Assembly: GCA_016932615.1 (NCBI GenBank)
Contig: JAFGCN010000029.1
Span: 1-45,231, forward strand
Length of the DNA stretch: 45,231 bases
Direction of reading: 5' to 3'
Origin: Candidatus Aenigmatarchaeota archaeon
GTDB lineage: Archaea; Aenigmatarchaeota; Aenigmatarchaeia; QMZS01
Position 1 is the first letter of the stretch; each line of letters starts with the position of its first letter. The position numbers were made by a program, and so were the translations under genes. Below the pieces are notes generated by a model. That model saw only the letters and a program-made list of their open reading frames with translations, made no database searches and was not told the DNA's origin. Shown here piece after piece: positions 34,235 to 45,231 of this stretch.

Positions 34235-34696
34235 ATGGCCTTTGTTGGAGTTATCATTGAGGAAAGTCTTGAAGACAAGGAAATTCTCCAGAAGGTAAAA
34301 ATCATAAAGACTGTTGTCGAGAAAGTAACTGCAAAACATAAGACTCCCTGGATAAAGCATTGGACGCTTCACACAGTTGAAGTCCCGGAAAATCGGGCAG
34401 AAGCAGTTGCCAAAGACTTAAGCAAAGCCCTCGACTCAAGGCACGACTGGTACGCCGACTTCAAGGATGAGCATACTCACTATATAATCTTCAAAAGCAA
34501 GGTATTTTTGATAGACCGGACAAGAAGGGAGCAATATGAAGAAGCTACAAAATATGGCATATCCCTAGGCATACCGAAATACCAGGTGGATTTTTCTCCT
34601 CAGGTCAAATTAGAGAAGACGCAAGGCCACGCTAAACAAAATCCAGGTAAGACCTCAGTTTTCTGTGCCATGGAATCTGGTAAGCCCTCCCGGTAA
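34235..34696 (+). CDS. Conserved hypothetical protein
   Basis: 153 aa, soluble. I recognise the pattern of a small conserved protein with no known function: KHKTPWIKHWTLHTVEVPE, then a hydrophilic helix, HDWYADFKDEHTHYIIFKSKVF and EATKYGISLGIPKYQVDF. Two His-rich stretches are prominent. The last ~20 residues overlap the 3' end of the convergent MinD-like gene by 65 bp and may be less conserved. Confidence 0.78.
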   Translation: MAFVGVIIEESLEDKEILQKVKIIKTVVEKVTAKHKTPWIKHWTLHTVEVPENRAEAVAKDLSKALDSRHDWYADFKDEHTHYIIFKSKVFLIDRTRREQYEEATKYGISLGIPKYQVDFSPQVKLEKTQGHAKQNPGKTSVFCAMESGKPSR

Positions 34697-35399
34697 TTCC
34701 TGCGGCAAGCTTCATTATCTTGAGAGATGACCTCCCATGCGGCTTGAAGTGGATTACCGGCATCCTTTTTGAAAGGGCATAGCGCATGTTATCGTCGTCG
34801 GGTATCGTTTCAAGAATTGGTGTTTCTTCCAGAAGGGACAGGACATGCTCTTTTTTTGTTTCATATGGCTTGTTTCTGTGCATGTTTATGACCGTTCCAA
34901 GATAGCTGCGGTCTGACTTTTTAATAAGCTCTATTGATTTGAGAAGGTCTGTAAGCGCCGGAAGGTCAGGAGTTGAGACCCCTATTATCTCATGGGAAGC
35001 TCCAAGAACGCCCATTGCCTCCCCCCCAAGCCCAGGCGCTCCGTCGATAAGTATATAGTCCAAGCGCCCCAATAGGTCCCGAAGCCGGGAGCCAAGGTAC
35101 ATTGGGTTTGTCCCCTCAAGGTCGCTTACATTCAGAGAGGCGGGAATTATTTTCATTCCCGAAGGGAGAAGCTTCATCACATCGTATATGTCGACCCTTC
35201 CCTTTAAGACATCATGGAGGGAAATGTTGCCGGGCGCAAGGCCTGCATGTATTGATAGGTTTGGGGTGGTCACATTGCCATCAACTATTGCCACATTCAT
35301 TCCAAGATCAGTCATGGCAGCGCCAAGGTTAAAGGTCAGGGTAGTCTTTCCGACTCCGCCTTTTCCGGAAAGGATACCTATAACTCTGGTATAAGCCAT
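34632..35399 (-). CDS. MinD-like P-loop ATPase
   Basis: 255 aa ParA/MinD family. Deviant Walker A GKGGVGKTT at about 11-19, switch I VDGNVTTPN, Walker B YILIDGAPG. The C-terminus (LRSYLDFV) is a poor amphipathic membrane-targeting helix, so membrane binding is uncertain. MinD-like proteins position surface or division structures in archaea; the partner is not in the window. The gene overlaps the opposing gene's 3' end. The tRNA-Trp gene lies directly upstream on the same strand. Confidence 0.9.
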   Translation of the reverse strand: MAYTRVIGILSGKGGVGKTTLTFNLGAAMTDLGMNVAIVDGNVTTPNLSIHAGLAPGNISLHDVLKGRVDIYDVMKLLPSGMKIIPASLNVSDLEGTNPMYLGSRLRDLLGRLDYILIDGAPGLGGEAMGVLGASHEIIGVSTPDLPALTDLLKSIELIKKSDRSYLGTVINMHRNKPYETKKEHVLSLLEETPILETIPDDDNMRYALSKRMPVIHFKPHGRSSLKIMKLAAGITGRAYQIPWHRKLRSYLDFV

Positions 35400-40766: not shown

Positions 40767-41939
40767 TCACTTACTAAAATGCGCATAAATCAGCATCGCA
40801 GCAGACCAGGTCTGGTCTGCAGAGCCGCCCGGCTTTCCGTCAGGGCCTATCCACTCGGGAAACCTCCAGTTCTCCATCTCACAAGACTTGACAAGAGAAT
40901 CGAAAGCCCGTTCATATGGCCTTTTTTCCTTCTTTAATGCGGCTATGTAAAAACCGCCAGCAAAAGGCCAGATTCCTCCGTTATGAAAGTTCCCAGGTTC
41001 CTGAAGGCATGGCAGGTCCGTCCAGCGGAAGTAAAAATTCCAGAAAGGGTCGTACCTTGAGATTGCAGGGTGAAGCACCTTTATCGGGTAGGGCTTATTC
41101 ACAAGCTCAGACTCTATTGCATCGAGTATTTTTTTCCGTCGGTCTTTTGGCGCGACATCGAAAAGAACTGCCAGTGTGTTTGCGAACGCGTCAAAGCGCG
41201 GGTCGTATGTGCGAAAGCCAAGCTCAGCAAGGTAGAAATTCCGCTCTCCTTTTTCGTTTGACATCACGGTTTCCACATCCTTTTCAAGCCCTGTGTGGCC
41301 ATAACGCGTTCTCACTTCCTCCAGGGATTCCTGTGTGGGCCACAGGAACATGTTTATGTGCTCACGCAGGTTTTCTGCAATCCAGCCCCACTTCTGCTCA
41401 AACCCCAAAAAGCGGTTTATTTCGTCAGCGTCCTTAAGCGCCTTGTATAGAAGGACATTGTCATAGAGTACCCTTCCAGACCGGAGAAGCATATCCATCC
41501 AGTCGCTTCCAAAGTTAGTCTCAATCATCCAGTCGCTGTTCTGGTCAAGGCAGATTGCCCAGCCCATTGCATGCTCGACCCGTTTGTGGTGCTCCTTTAA
41601 AAATGCCAGGTCTTTTGTGCTCTTGAAATAATTCCAGGCCGCTATCGGGTACCACAAGCTTGAATCAATGCACCCTCCTTCGCCAAAGCAGATTTTCTTC
41701 CCGTCAGGAGTTACCTTATTTGGCATCTGGCCGGTGAACCTTTGGAATTTTGCAGCAGTCTGTATGCATGCTTTTGCGATTTTTTCCAGGCGCGCATCGC
41801 CCGATAGGGATAAGCCCATTGACGAAATAAGCCCGTCCCTCACCCAAAAATCAGGATAGTAATATCCGGCCTTTAGGCCAATGCCAATATCATTCTTAAG
41901 CAAAAGCTCAGATGCCTTCTGGACAAAAACTTCCGGCAT
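40767..41939 (-). CDS. Six-hairpin glycosidase-like protein
   Basis: 390 aa of (alpha/alpha)6-barrel type. YYYPDFWVRDGLISSMG matches the W-x-R-D signature of glycogen debranching-like and GH100/GH63-like enzymes. GGCIDSSLWYPIAAWNYF carries a candidate catalytic Asp, and LQEPGNFHNGGIWPFAGGFY and FPEWIGPDGKPGGSADQTWS are typical late motifs. No signal peptide, so it probably acts inside on stored or imported glycans. It may be amylo-1,6-glucosidase-like; the substrate is not certain. Confidence 0.82.
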   Translation of the reverse strand: MPEVFVQKASELLLKNDIGIGLKAGYYYPDFWVRDGLISSMGLSLSGDARLEKIAKACIQTAAKFQRFTGQMPNKVTPDGKKICFGEGGCIDSSLWYPIAAWNYFKSTKDLAFLKEHHKRVEHAMGWAICLDQNSDWMIETNFGSDWMDMLLRSGRVLYDNVLLYKALKDADEINRFLGFEQKWGWIAENLREHINMFLWPTQESLEEVRTRYGHTGLEKDVETVMSNEKGERNFYLAELGFRTYDPRFDAFANTLAVLFDVAPKDRRKKILDAIESELVNKPYPIKVLHPAISRYDPFWNFYFRWTDLPCLQEPGNFHNGGIWPFAGGFYIAALKKEKRPYERAFDSLVKSCEMENWRFPEWIGPDGKPGGSADQTWSAAMLIYAHFSK

Positions 41940-41971
41940 ATATTATATTGCCTGCAGGTAATACTTATAGC

Positions 41972-42586
41972 TCAAAGGTAAAACGCGCGATAGAACTTTT
42001 CGACCCCCTTTACCACAATTCCATTAAGGTACCGGGAGTCGTCTCTTTTCCTTGAAATTGACTCGATAGTTTCAAACTGTGCGTCAAAGCGAAGGCCGCA
42101 GCGGTACTCCATTTTAAGAAGCTCCTCTGAAAGATATTTGGGGCCTAAAACCATAAGAGCCACTTTTTTTACAGGCATTATCGAAAAGTCCAGGACAGAT
42201 ACCAGTTCAGCATCCAGCTTTTCAAGTCCGGAAAGGCAGGAACTGATTTCGCCAGGCGTCCTCTCATGGACACTTCCGGAATCCTGCACCTTTCTTGCCT
42301 TCTGGGACAAAATTCCCATTGAATCTGTGTAAAACCGGGACTTTGACTCAGTAGTATAGTGGACAAAACCCAGAAATGCAAAATCAGAATGGTAGTTTGG
42401 AAAGGCGACTATTACATTCCCGTATCTCTTTGTGCCAACAATGCCTTTTTCGCTTAGCGACTGGACTGCAGAATGAACCCTCTCATAGGAATAACCGCAC
42501 TTTTTCTGTATTTCCTTAAGCGTTTTAAAATGTTTTTCGGGAAACAAGCTCACCAAAACGCCAAGCTCGTTTGGGGGCAGCACCAT
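41972..42586 (-). CDS. Winged-helix DNA-binding regulator
   Basis: 204 aa. The N-terminal wHTH (about 5-65) has TLKEIQKKCGYSYERVHSAVQSLSEKGI with the wing KRYGNVIVAF. The remainder (about 75-204) is a mixed domain of no known family that could sense a ligand. It is divergent from a secreted-protein gene, and the shared gap holds a palindrome present also before the paralogous secreted gene, so it is a candidate regulator of both and of itself. Confidence 0.78.
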   Translation of the reverse strand: MVLPPNELGVLVSLFPEKHFKTLKEIQKKCGYSYERVHSAVQSLSEKGIVGTKRYGNVIVAFPNYHSDFAFLGFVHYTTESKSRFYTDSMGILSQKARKVQDSGSVHERTPGEISSCLSGLEKLDAELVSVLDFSIMPVKKVALMVLGPKYLSEELLKMEYRCGLRFDAQFETIESISRKRDDSRYLNGIVVKGVEKFYRAFYL

Positions 42587-42607
42587 AATGTAGCAATAGT
42601 ATTATTA

Positions 42608-42627
42608 TTTCAATAGGTTTACTGAAA
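42608..42627. promoter_or_regulatory. Palindromic operator upstream of secreted protein 1
   Basis: An imperfect inverted repeat, TTTCAATA-GGTT-TACTGAAA, 15 bp before the TATA box of the 42670 gene and next to the divergent wHTH promoter. A matching palindrome lies at the same distance before the paralogue at 43774. Confidence 0.5.
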
Positions 42628-42642
42628 TTTCATTAGCGCCAG

Positions 42643-42654
42643 AATATATATATG
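42643..42654 (+). promoter_or_regulatory. TATA box of secreted protein 1
   Basis: AATATATATATG, centred about 22 bp before the ATG at 42670. A leaderless transcript is implied. Confidence 0.6.
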
Positions 42655-42669
42655 CTAAGTTAGATAGTT

Positions 42670-43644
42670 ATGAACTCTGAGTTACGCAAAAAAGACTGCG
42701 CTGCCTGTGCAGGCAAGTTTGCAAGAATAACCTTAAGCTTACTTCTCATTGCATCGGCAGCATCACTTTTGGCAATCCCGGCAATAGCGGCGGAAAATGT
42801 TTCCGACACCATTAACATTACCGTGCAGGTCGGCTCAAAGACTATCGTTGTAATTGACCCGGACACGCTTTCCTGGACAGGCGCTCAGGCAGTAGACCCT
42901 GGCAGGGAGGGTGTCAGCAAAGAGATACAAATAGAAAACATGGGCTCAACAAACATCACCCACCTCTGGGCAAACACGACCTATGAAACAGCACCCCCCT
43001 TCGGGACGGGTGTCGCGGCAAACTACAATGCAGGAAACTTTGTGGCGCTTAGCAAGACAAACGGAACAAGCGACTATTACTACTTCGTAAACCGCGTTGA
43101 GTACAATGAAACCCACCCGGATATCTACCTTACACTTCCTGCAAGCTGGGAGGGCTATGGACGGTTCAGGGACGGCGGAAAGGAATACTTCTGGGCGGTT
43201 GTTCCAAACACAAACTGCACCGACGGAACCTTCTACATAGGAAAAGAGCCACATAACGAGACTCAGTCCGGAACGGTTGATATCTCGGCTTGCGACGCAA
43301 CCCTGAATGACTCTTCGGGAGGTCAGGCCTGCAGAAGCGGCACACTTACACCCAACGCAGAGGGAACCTGGGGCTACGCACTTCAGGTATATGTTGGCTC
43401 TAACGCGGAATACCACAACTACTCTGTATCCGTCAATGCAGACTGCAACACAACAATGTTCAGCCACTGGAATAAAGACGCGCCTGGAGGAACAGCAGCG
43501 GGAAGCCACATAGACTACCTGTCCTCTACGACGCTTTACCCTGGCGCTGCAGCGATAATGTACGCAAAGGTAAAGGTTGCTTACGGCACCGCGGCAGGTA
43601 ATATCGCGCAGGGGCAGCTCACGATAATTGCCGAGTCGGCATAG
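42670..43644 (+). CDS. Secreted surface protein, paralogue 1
   Basis: 324 aa. A Lys/Cys N-terminus, then a signal peptide (ITLSLLLIASAASLLAIPAIAA) and a beta-rich mature domain with many NxS/T sites. It shares a layout with the next gene: a start like DTINITVQVGSKTIVVIDPDT, then IQIENMGSTNITHLW, YNAGNFV, GYGRFRDGGKEYFWAV, and a final GAAAIMYAKVKVAYG and QLTIIAESA. It is likely an exported filament or S-layer-type protein; no known family is certain. It has a strong TATA box and an upstream palindrome. Confidence 0.82.
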   Translation: MNSELRKKDCAACAGKFARITLSLLLIASAASLLAIPAIAAENVSDTINITVQVGSKTIVVIDPDTLSWTGAQAVDPGREGVSKEIQIENMGSTNITHLWANTTYETAPPFGTGVAANYNAGNFVALSKTNGTSDYYYFVNRVEYNETHPDIYLTLPASWEGYGRFRDGGKEYFWAVVPNTNCTDGTFYIGKEPHNETQSGTVDISACDATLNDSSGGQACRSGTLTPNAEGTWGYALQVYVGSNAEYHNYSVSVNADCNTTMFSHWNKDAPGGTAAGSHIDYLSSTTLYPGAAAIMYAKVKVAYGTAAGNIAQGQLTIIAESA

Positions 43645-43709
43645 CTCATTTTATTTTTTGAAGTATTATCTGAACTTGCCAGACGGTACAAAAACACAGC
43701 TTATCGATA

Positions 43710-43730
43710 TTTCAATAAGCTTATTGGAAA
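43710..43730. promoter_or_regulatory. Palindromic operator upstream of secreted protein 2
   Basis: The core CAATAAGCTTATTG is a perfect palindrome, flanked by TTT and GAAA. It lies about 14 bp before the TATA box of the 43774 gene, and matches the repeat at 42608-42627 in sequence and spacing. Confidence 0.55.
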
Positions 43731-43744
43731 GTATATAATCCGAA

Positions 43745-43757
43745 ACTATATATATAG
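43745..43757 (+). promoter_or_regulatory. TATA box of secreted protein 2
   Basis: ACTATATATATAG, centred about 23 bp before the ATG at 43774. Confidence 0.6.
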
Positions 43758-43773
43758 ACATCTAAATATATGT

Positions 43774-44742
43774 ATGGAAAAAAGGTCCAGCAACATACTT
43801 TTAGCAATAGCAATACTTGCAGCCACTATTTGTTCCCCTGCACTTGCAGTCGACTGGAACGATACGGAAACGGCAAACGTCTCGATAACCATATCAACAA
43901 AGACAATGGTAAACATCGACCCCTATCTTCTGACCTGGAATGCATTGGAACCGGGAAGCATTGGAAACTATTCCAATGAAGCCAATGGGTACTTTGCAAT
44001 ACAGGTAGAAAATATCGGTTCACACAACATCACCTACATATGGTTCAACGCAAGTTACCCGACAGCAAGGCCATTTGCAACCGCCAGTGCCCAGAATTAT
44101 GACGCAGGAAACTTCATAGTAATCGCAAGAGAACCAGCGGGCGGAGCAAACTCCAGCAACTGCAATGACCTAAACAAATACAGCGACTTCAAGTTCCCTA
44201 ACCTTGTTGAATATCCTGAAGTAAGAGCGCTTGTTTACGTAAAAGATGACGCAGGAAACATGCCACCCCAAAACAGGGACTACGGAAGGTTCAGGTTTGC
44301 AGACGAGGAATACTTCTGGATGATAAGTAACGCAACAGACTGCGGCGGCGGAAGCTTCATGATTGGTAACAATGCCCACACGGAAGCCACAACCGGTACA
44401 GTAGACTTCCAGGCGGCAAACCACGTGACAGTTTCCCTCAATGCGGCAGGTGAAGATGGATGGTGCTACGGAACAGTCGGAGCAGGGCACAACCTTACCG
44501 GATACGGAGTCCTTGTGCAAAATGCCACATCAGGCGCGACAAGAAAGGTCATGCTTGTTTGGTGGAACAAGGATGCAATAAACTCCGGAAGCGTAGGCAC
44601 TTACTTCTGGAACACAACGAATGACGGCCCAATAGTCCCAGGAAACTCAACTGCAGCATGCATAAAGGCCTATGTGCCGTACGGAGTTAACGAAGGAACC
44701 GTAAAGGAAGGCGTTATTACAGTATTTGCAAGCAGCGCATAA
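43774..44742 (+). CDS. Secreted surface protein, paralogue 2
   Basis: 322 aa. Signal peptide (ILLAIAILAATICSPALA), then a beta-rich mature domain parallel to paralogue 1: ETANVSITISTKTMVNIDP, ENIGSHNITYIWFNASYP, YDAGNFIVI, RDYGRFRFADEEYFWMI, and the same type of end (GVITVFASSA). Sequence identity to paralogue 1 is modest but collinear over the full length. Shared operator and TATA spacing point to one regulation. Probably an abundant exterior protein; function unknown. Confidence 0.82.
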   Translation: MEKRSSNILLAIAILAATICSPALAVDWNDTETANVSITISTKTMVNIDPYLLTWNALEPGSIGNYSNEANGYFAIQVENIGSHNITYIWFNASYPTARPFATASAQNYDAGNFIVIAREPAGGANSSNCNDLNKYSDFKFPNLVEYPEVRALVYVKDDAGNMPPQNRDYGRFRFADEEYFWMISNATDCGGGSFMIGNNAHTEATTGTVDFQAANHVTVSLNAAGEDGWCYGTVGAGHNLTGYGVLVQNATSGATRKVMLVWWNKDAINSGSVGTYFWNTTNDGPIVPGNSTAACIKAYVPYGVNEGTVKEGVITVFASSA

Positions 44743-44822
44743 TTGCTTTTTGTTTTTTTTCTGGTTTGTTTATTTTTTAGCTTAAGCTATCAGAGCTAAC
44801 TAAACTATATGAATATTAGTTT

Positions 44823-45231
44823 ATGAATAGCAATATTCAGACACACAAAATCAAGATTTCTGAAGTAAAGCGGGAAATTCATAAGGCGGTGCTAGGTCAG
44901 GATGCCGTAATTGATGACGTGATAAAGTGCTTGCTGTGCAACTCGCACGCGCTTCTTGAGGGAGTTCCGGGCGTTGCAAAGACCCACCTGATCAAGTGCC
45001 TCTCAGAAACGATAGAGGGGGCTATTTTTTCCAGGGTGCAGTTTACGCCGGACCTTCTTCCAAGCGACATTACCGGAGTCCAGATTTACGAGGAGGCGCG
45101 CGGGTTCTACATACGAAAAGGCCCCATCTTCTCAAACTTTACACTGGCTGACGAAATCAACCGGGCGCCTCCTAAAGTGCAGGCAGCGATGCTCCAGTGC
45201 ATGGCTGAGCGGCAGGTTACTATCGGCACCA
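44823..45231 (+). CDS. MoxR-family AAA+ ATPase (3' partial)
   Basis: Starts at the ATG 44823 and runs off the window with no stop. MoxR-type: IHKAVLGQDAVIDDVIKC, Walker A variant LLEGVPGVAKTH, QFTPDLLPSDITG, the insertion FYIRKGPIF, and Walker B LADEINRAPPKVQAAMLQ. These proteins act as chaperones, often with VWA-domain or DUF58 proteins, which would lie outside the window. Confidence 0.95.
   Translation, partial: MNSNIQTHKIKISEVKREIHKAVLGQDAVIDDVIKCLLCNSHALLEGVPGVAKTHLIKCLSETIEGAIFSRVQFTPDLLPSDITGVQIYEEARGFYIRKGPIFSNFTLADEINRAPPKVQAAMLQCMAERQVTIGT

Follow-up and report, generated by a model that had tools for sequence, protein, structure and literature searches.

What controls the two adjacent secreted-protein genes near the end of contig C29 of a Candidatus Aenigmatarchaeota archaeon? 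The contig was analysed over its whole length of 45,231 nucleotides (the window) and belongs to a 1.26-Mb genome of 29 contigs that is 97% complete. To our knowledge, transcription control of cell-surface structures is almost unexplored in DPANN archaea, because nearly all of them are uncultured and live by host contact; the locus supplies a testable regulator, operator and target set for such genes. A regulator gene (41972–42586, minus strand) encodes a 204-aa protein with an N-terminal winged helix-turn-helix (wHTH, residues about 5–63); its C-terminal domain, which lacks the GSx10DxD motif, has minimal nucleotidyltransferases (NTases) as relatives. Facing away from it on the plus strand are the genes of two secreted proteins, SP1 (42670–43644, 324 aa) and SP2 (43774–44742, 322 aa), each with a signal peptide recognized by eye and 11 N-glycosylation sequons. 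The start of a MoxR-type AAA ATPase gene follows (44823–45231, plus strand, truncated by the window end); it had been missed in the original prediction. That prediction was right in calling the two secreted proteins paralogous, as they are 34% identical over 319 columns (E 2e-45). We consider it fairly probable that the locus is a surface-structure regulon, in which an exapted antitoxin-like regulator represses its own gene and jointly activates the genes of two subunits that belong to a single surface structure.

Among the 39 window ORFs of at least 150 aa, sequons are densest in SP1 and SP2. Shuffled sequences contained on average 3.7 (SP1) and 4.5 (SP2) sequons, and the observed 11 was reached by 0 and 2 of 2000 shuffles respectively, suggesting that both proteins are probably glycosylated. 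A genome search with SP1 returned no family member beyond SP1 and SP2 themselves. Among 60 genomes, that of the window included, 11 carry members of the family, and 25 loci were named from the genomes of 22 records labelled Aenigmatarchaeota, Altiarchaeota, Nanohaloarchaeota, Micrarchaeota (one) or just archaeon. At least two members stand together in 15 of these 25 loci and a MoxR gene is present in 11, both counts being lower bounds because contigs end. A tree was computed from an alignment (A4) of 44 of the 49 SP-like ORFs of the named loci, two of them with a later start; L050:2-586, L060:5632-7008, L064:5660-6718, L065:2-829 and L067:1100-2176 were left out. In this tree, which was rooted at the midpoint and has SH-aLRT as its only support measure, SP1 and SP2 fall into separate lineages, each with its orthologue from G004, a genome of the same family and a different genus, and SP2 groups with altiarchaeal proteins (support 97). 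Judged from these sequences, SP1 and SP2 are old, long-diverged separate lineages.

The fold of SP2 was examined on an AlphaFold2 model (pLDDT 89, pTM 0.84). The nearest solved structures were TLP-1b (so named in its title), TasA, FimG and a complex of FimA, followed at lower scores by Caf1, CupE and CanA (Z 3.5–6.0). Of the first 13 structural neighbours, 8 can be recognized from their titles as fibre subunits or complexes of such subunits (TasA, FimG, FimA, Caf1 three times, CupE and CanA), and TLP-1b, the first of all, could be a ninth; rows 5, 6, 10 and 12 are filled by unrelated proteins. With TasA fibres, chaperone-usher pili and CanA (8aur, 5iqm, 1p5u and 9hdi; Z 5.8, 5.2, 4.5 and 3.5) the likeness is that they are among the top neighbours of the SP2 model; the differences are that Z is low and that the SP sequences have no match in the PDB. 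The superposition on TasA (8aur) covers 143 aligned residues at Z 5.8 and an rmsd of 4.5, and its Foldseek probability of 0.35 (E 0.14) is the highest of the best 50 rows. DSSP assigned no strand before residue 46 in the single-chain model. Literature searches for TLP-1b with cryo-EM and for DPANN with donor strand and filament found nothing. The fold matches are a lead, not proof; on this model, they hint that SP2 may form a donor-strand fibre.

The same comparisons leave almost even room for a plainer explanation, only slightly less probable than its opposite, namely that the SPs are ordinary secreted proteins (e.g. S-layer parts) and that the fibre-like matches reflect nothing but a common beta-sandwich. 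The best Z of 6.0 lies in the range below 8 that the structure-comparison tool itself annotates as common; Foldseek returned nothing at E 0.001 or better, and its E-values put a mannosidase ahead of TasA at the top of the list; and a PDB sequence search with the SP family gave no match even at E 10. Against it stands the predominance of fibre subunits among the first 13 neighbours, with TLP-1b perhaps adding to them.

A likeness of the N-terminal start of the SPs to TasA was not counted as evidence. Neither SP1 nor SP2 matched the TasA/camelysin families (PF12389/TIGR04088), and PF12389 is absent from the families matched by any of 46 SP family members at E 0.05. The window's genome (G000) does encode tandem TasA/camelysin-type proteins with PF12389 and TIGR04088 signal on contig C7 (about 50222–51973; L106, L107), one of them with a vWA-like C-terminal part. 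This fibre-like locus is separate from the SP locus; a relationship between its proteins and the SPs was considered and dropped, as profile comparison gave it no support (probability 0.9).

Both SP genes are preceded by the palindrome TCAATA-n4-TATTGA with one mismatch in each copy. The first, TTTCAATAGGTTTACTGAAA (42608–42627), and the second, TTTCAATAAGCTTATTGGAA (43710–43729), are identical at 16 of 20 positions and begin 62 and 64 bp before the respective ATGs, exactly as had been predicted. As also predicted, one of them lies between SP1 and the divergent regulator, with its centre 31.5 bp from the regulator ATG. A third half-site beside each palindrome had escaped the original prediction, so that each operator appears to consist of three half-sites in 10-bp steps. 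Operator 1 (42610–42635, plus strand) reads TCAATA-n4-TACTGA-n4-TCATTA (half-sites at 42610–42615, 42620–42625 and 42630–42635), the TCATTA being present also in G004 and G005; operator 2 (43702–43727, plus strand) reads TATCGA-n4-TCAATA-n4-TATTGG (43702–43707, 43712–43717 and 43722–43727), and its counterpart before SP2 of G004 is TATTGA-n4-TCAATA-n4-TATTGA. When the half-sites are read as TTGA/TCAA, their spacing alternates between 4 and 8 bp. On such three-part forms the five SP promoters found in three genomes score 10–12 of 12, values equalled by 0–4 of 300 shuffles; as the pattern was defined on these same promoters, such figures are descriptive.

With the consensus of both sites and up to 3 mismatches, a scan of the window gave 4 strand-matches, all at the two SP sites (expected 0.17; 4 reached in 0 of 100 shuffles). 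The 20-base consensus, again with up to 3 mismatches, gave 10 strand-matches in the whole genome versus 0 for the pattern read backwards. As for the genome scan called for in the original prediction, the only matches without mismatch in the 1.26 Mb are at the two SP places, from which the consensus had itself been drawn. The next-best match, on contig C23 with 1–2 mismatches, is within an ORF that resembles a methylase by eye, and four further places have 3 mismatches. The shorter core TCAATAnnnnTATTGA, with up to 1 mismatch, occurs at 8 places in this genome versus 2 for the reversed control. It is also enriched in G004 (16 versus 7) and in G001 (18 versus 9), a genome without regulator match, and scarcely or not at all in G003 (15 versus 13), G005 (11 versus 11) and G006 (11 versus 11), which are of the same family. 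Of the six core places outside the SP locus, five are inside ORFs of 151–649 aa (the 158-aa one may be spurious). The sixth, on contig C28, is a one-mismatch core with a possible third half-site (L110, 1503–1518) that lies across the end of a glycosyltransferase-like gene; a methyltransferase-like gene begins 80 bp further on (both named by eye). It is a possible extra target, though left out of the target count.

G004 has the genes in the same order, regulator–SP1–SP2–MoxR, and its palindrome is perfect at both SP promoters; in G005 the palindrome is perfect between the regulator and SP1, inside which the contig stops. The sites are thus conserved in relatives, the point on which the original prediction had staked itself. 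A matrix built from the three G004 and G005 sites put the two SP sites at the top of all window positions (18.7 and 17.9; next 12.3), with scores reached by 1 and 3 of 2000 mononucleotide shuffles of intergenic sequence. This result is partly circular because the relatives' sites were chosen with a pattern derived from the window, its independent part being their place in orthologous promoters. In G002 and G006, a one-mismatch site lies between the regulator gene, which is broken by stop codons in G006, and a gene for a different secreted protein that faces the regulator; no SP match was obtained in either genome. Sequence comparison thus bears out the conservation of operators and gene order within the compact surface-protein regulon that had been proposed under a divergent wHTH protein, with perfect sites in two relatives and one-mismatch sites in two more; that the regulator is the protein binding both operators is the part of that proposal which we infer.

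In the window's genome, contig C28 encodes a 56% identical relative of the secreted protein of G002 and G006; its gene shows no such operator by eye in about 200 bp of upstream sequence. This type of protein was tried as an SP homologue: profile comparison gave a probability of 56 over 93 columns at the start, which was not taken as homology because the signal peptide is included. This second family, of about 320 aa (L037, L041, L092), is the one that faces the regulator in G002 or its broken remnant in G006, and it adjoins a 404–425-aa protein with sub-threshold ASH/filamin matches.

The only Pfam match of the regulator was to the TrmB family (PF01978), at 19.8 bits under a gathering cut-off of 25.6 bits, and no NTase match was obtained in Pfam for the regulators themselves. 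To TrmB regulators the likeness is weak and concerns the wHTH, whereas the C-terminal part is NTase-like. In the 60 genomes, the window's own included, 13 had a regulator match at E 0.001, with close full-length orthologues only in G002, G004 and G005; in 156 genomes of the class, again with its own, a profile search matched 10 at 1e-8, and over all 156 the orthologues are few, 4 intact genes and 1 broken one. The three weakest matches from the 60 genomes were not counted: G009 (L043) has no wHTH-NTase-like ORF, that of G044 (L045; E 5e-4) is another protein, and the third is in G042. The distant relatives (L099–L104 and L042, the latter in G003) are wHTH-NTases, and the four that were checked in Pfam (L038–L040 and L042; L038, L039 and L040 are the genes of L099, L102 and L100) all exceed the PF01909 cut-off. 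Aligned by hhalign as profiles of four rows each, regulators and wHTH-NTases match over 185 columns with a probability of 99 (E 4e-18), and an HMM of the wHTH-NTases recovers the four regulators at E 6e-25 to 4e-18. In PDB searches the regulator profile found nothing but the penicillinase repressor wHTH, which the wHTH-NTase profile matched as well, together with nucleotidyltransferases that include MntA-type ones. AlphaFold2 modelling of the regulator from three sequences reached pLDDT 51 overall (up to 91 in the wHTH part), and the model was left out of the fold search because of this value.

GSx10DxD is present in all seven HEPN-linked relatives and absent from all four surface-linked orthologues. 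The latter have S-T or S-I in place of GS, and in the DxD region a 6-column gap followed by residues without an acid. In all seven relatives examined (L042, L099–L104) a HEPN gene directly follows and overlaps the wHTH-NTase gene. No HEPN gene was found in the 2.5–3.6 kb around the four surface-linked orthologues, the longer loci L046 and L070 gave none either, and PF05168 has no match in the window's genome. From its sequence, the regulator looks like a full-length relative of the wHTH-NTases of HEPN/MNT-type modules that now lacks catalytic motif and partner. The likeness to Class II HEPN/MNT (HepT-MntA) modules (PF05168/PF01909) is in the NTase protein, of which the regulator is a full-length relative; the differences are the loss of the motif, the absence of a HEPN gene, a pair of surface genes as presumed target, and the N-terminal wHTH that the relatives additionally bear. 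In Class II modules a tyrosine replaces the histidine of RX4H, according to PMC7641770. The HEPN proteins of all seven modules here have R-x4-Y and thus lack the RNase histidine, for which reason the word antitoxin-like is used with reserve.

Most promoters of the HEPN modules carry arrays of the form TTGn-n4-nCAA-n8-TTGn-n4-nCAA, close to the start codon. Their best four-part matches cover 10–15 of 16 positions, scores that describe the arrays rather than prove them because the pattern was defined on the same sequences. Dinucleotide shuffles did as well in 0 of 300 cases in L042, L099, L100 and L102, in 2 of 300 in L104 and in 5 of 300 in L103. In L101 the four-part form was equalled by 179 of 300 shuffles and the three-part forms by 1 and 3 of 300; in L103 and L104, where the half-sites are TTGG/CCAA or TTGT/ACAA, the three-part forms are weak (33–40 of 300 shuffles as good). 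The module of G003 and SP1 of G004 share 16 identical bases, TCAATATATTTATTGA. By comparison of these sequences, the regulator would descend from the wHTH-NTase of a HEPN/MNT-type two-gene module, and would have lost the nucleotidyl-transfer motif and the HEPN partner while retaining the operator type, with its wHTH binding TTGA/TCAA half-site arrays of alternating 4/8-bp spacing.

The direction of regulation may be read from the promoter geometry. In the window, the palindrome centre is 52.5–54.5 bp before the ATG of SP1 and SP2. From the core centre to the TATA centre the distance is 30–32 bp for SP1 (ATATATATAT, 42644–42653, plus strand) and 31–33 bp for SP2 (CTATATATATAG, 43746–43757, plus strand), and from TATA to ATG it is 20.5–23.5 bp. 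The 14–15 bp originally given between palindrome and TATA box had to be corrected to 16–17 intervening bases. All five SP promoters, from three genomes, have a TATA 8-mer 29–33 bp and the ATG 52.5–56.5 bp from the core centre; SP2 of G004 has a second, equal-scoring TATA 8-mer directly before the ATG. This spacing is compatible with leaderless transcripts. On the regulator side, the core centre is 31.5 bp from the ATG in the window versus 22.5 bp in G004 and G005, a place where the core promoter of a leaderless regulator gene is expected. At the intergenic operator the regulator would therefore overlap its own promoter, which makes self-repression probable. From the same site and from the second one before SP2, it would probably activate two leaderless promoters, acting from a fixed position some three turns of the helix before the TATA box. 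Similar operator cores at corresponding distances predict co-expression, and SP1 and SP2, produced at the same time, would build a single glycosylated surface polymer or coat as its two subunits. Against this reading count the incomplete identity of the two sites with their single mismatches, the uneven enrichment of the core among genomes, the small number of regulator orthologues and the differing distance from operator to regulator ATG.

The regulator might instead repress both SP genes as well as itself, until a ligand or partner on the degenerate NTase domain lifts the repression. The arrays of the HEPN modules lie near the start codon, where repression is expected, and operator 2 adjoins a second TATA-like stretch (TATATAAT, 43732–43739), closer to it than the one assigned to SP2. 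We nevertheless hold this to be unlikely, as the TATA box is beyond the operator centre by 29–33 bp in every one of the five promoters. In archaea, an operator at such a distance upstream of the TATA box is more usual for activators.

Activation by the neighbouring regulator also has to be weighed against binding of the palindromes by some other factor, the adjacent wHTH protein being a mere neighbour. The assignment of binding to the regulator is inferential, and many SP loci in other families lack it: 8 of the 10 SP-carrying relatives have no close regulator orthologue, while G002 and G006 have the regulator or a remnant and no SP, so that neither depends on the other. Yet a similar palindrome stays with the regulator gene in G002 and G006 despite the different surface gene, and half-site arrays precede related wHTH-NTase genes in 7 genomes (clear in 6, weak in G006), making another factor improbable. 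A switch by the regulator between SP1 and SP2 as alternative coats, which the original prediction had envisaged as one option for two similar adjacent exterior proteins with a promoter each, is the least probable reading of all, given that the two promoters share an operator core at equal spacing, that members occur together in most named loci, that the lineages are old and separate, and that an inverted-repeat search of 41900–45231 found only operator 2 itself.

Combining these readings with the fold of SP2, we tentatively propose that a HEPN/MNT-type module was domesticated in Aenigmatarchaeota, and that its NTase, without motif and partner, kept the operator code and co-activates a two-subunit, glycosylated donor-strand-type fibre of an undescribed family spread over Aenigmatarchaeota, Altiarchaeota, Nanohaloarchaeota and one Micrarchaeota-labelled genome; this full chain may well not hold. 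The locus also bears on the HEPN/MNT pair itself, one wHTH-NTase branch of which appears to be reused for running surface genes. A 2009 survey of the pair considered it unlikely that its parts act as regulators and proposed that the DNA-binding part is encoded elsewhere (PMC2701414); unlike this proposal, the NTase here brings a wHTH of its own and stands behind an operator-like array. In archaea, a regulatory role of an antitoxin is already known: in Sulfolobus acidocaldarius the antitoxin VapB14 is reported to serve additionally as a transcription regulator for biofilm and for motility structures, and in one species a homologue of it is unpaired (PMC10127717). VapB14 differs in being of the VapB type, not an NTase relative, in having a cognate toxin, VapC14, and in being described in the abstract without a divergent surface-gene pair. 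New here are the origin of the regulator and the operator code. Among the matches listed, published titles and abstract starts on HEPN/MNT with wHTH, winged helix or surface protein held none with this arrangement.

Some further features of the relatives concern the neighbouring genes. In G004 a partial array, TATTGATATTTCAATA (L004, 2526–2541), precedes the MoxR gene, where none is seen by eye in the window. DUF58 and vWA/BatA-like genes come after MoxR in the G004 locus (L046). The gene right after the regulator is MinD/ParA-like in G004 and G005 (L046, 3246–4813), and a similar gene is located in the window at 34632–35399, about 6.6 kb off.
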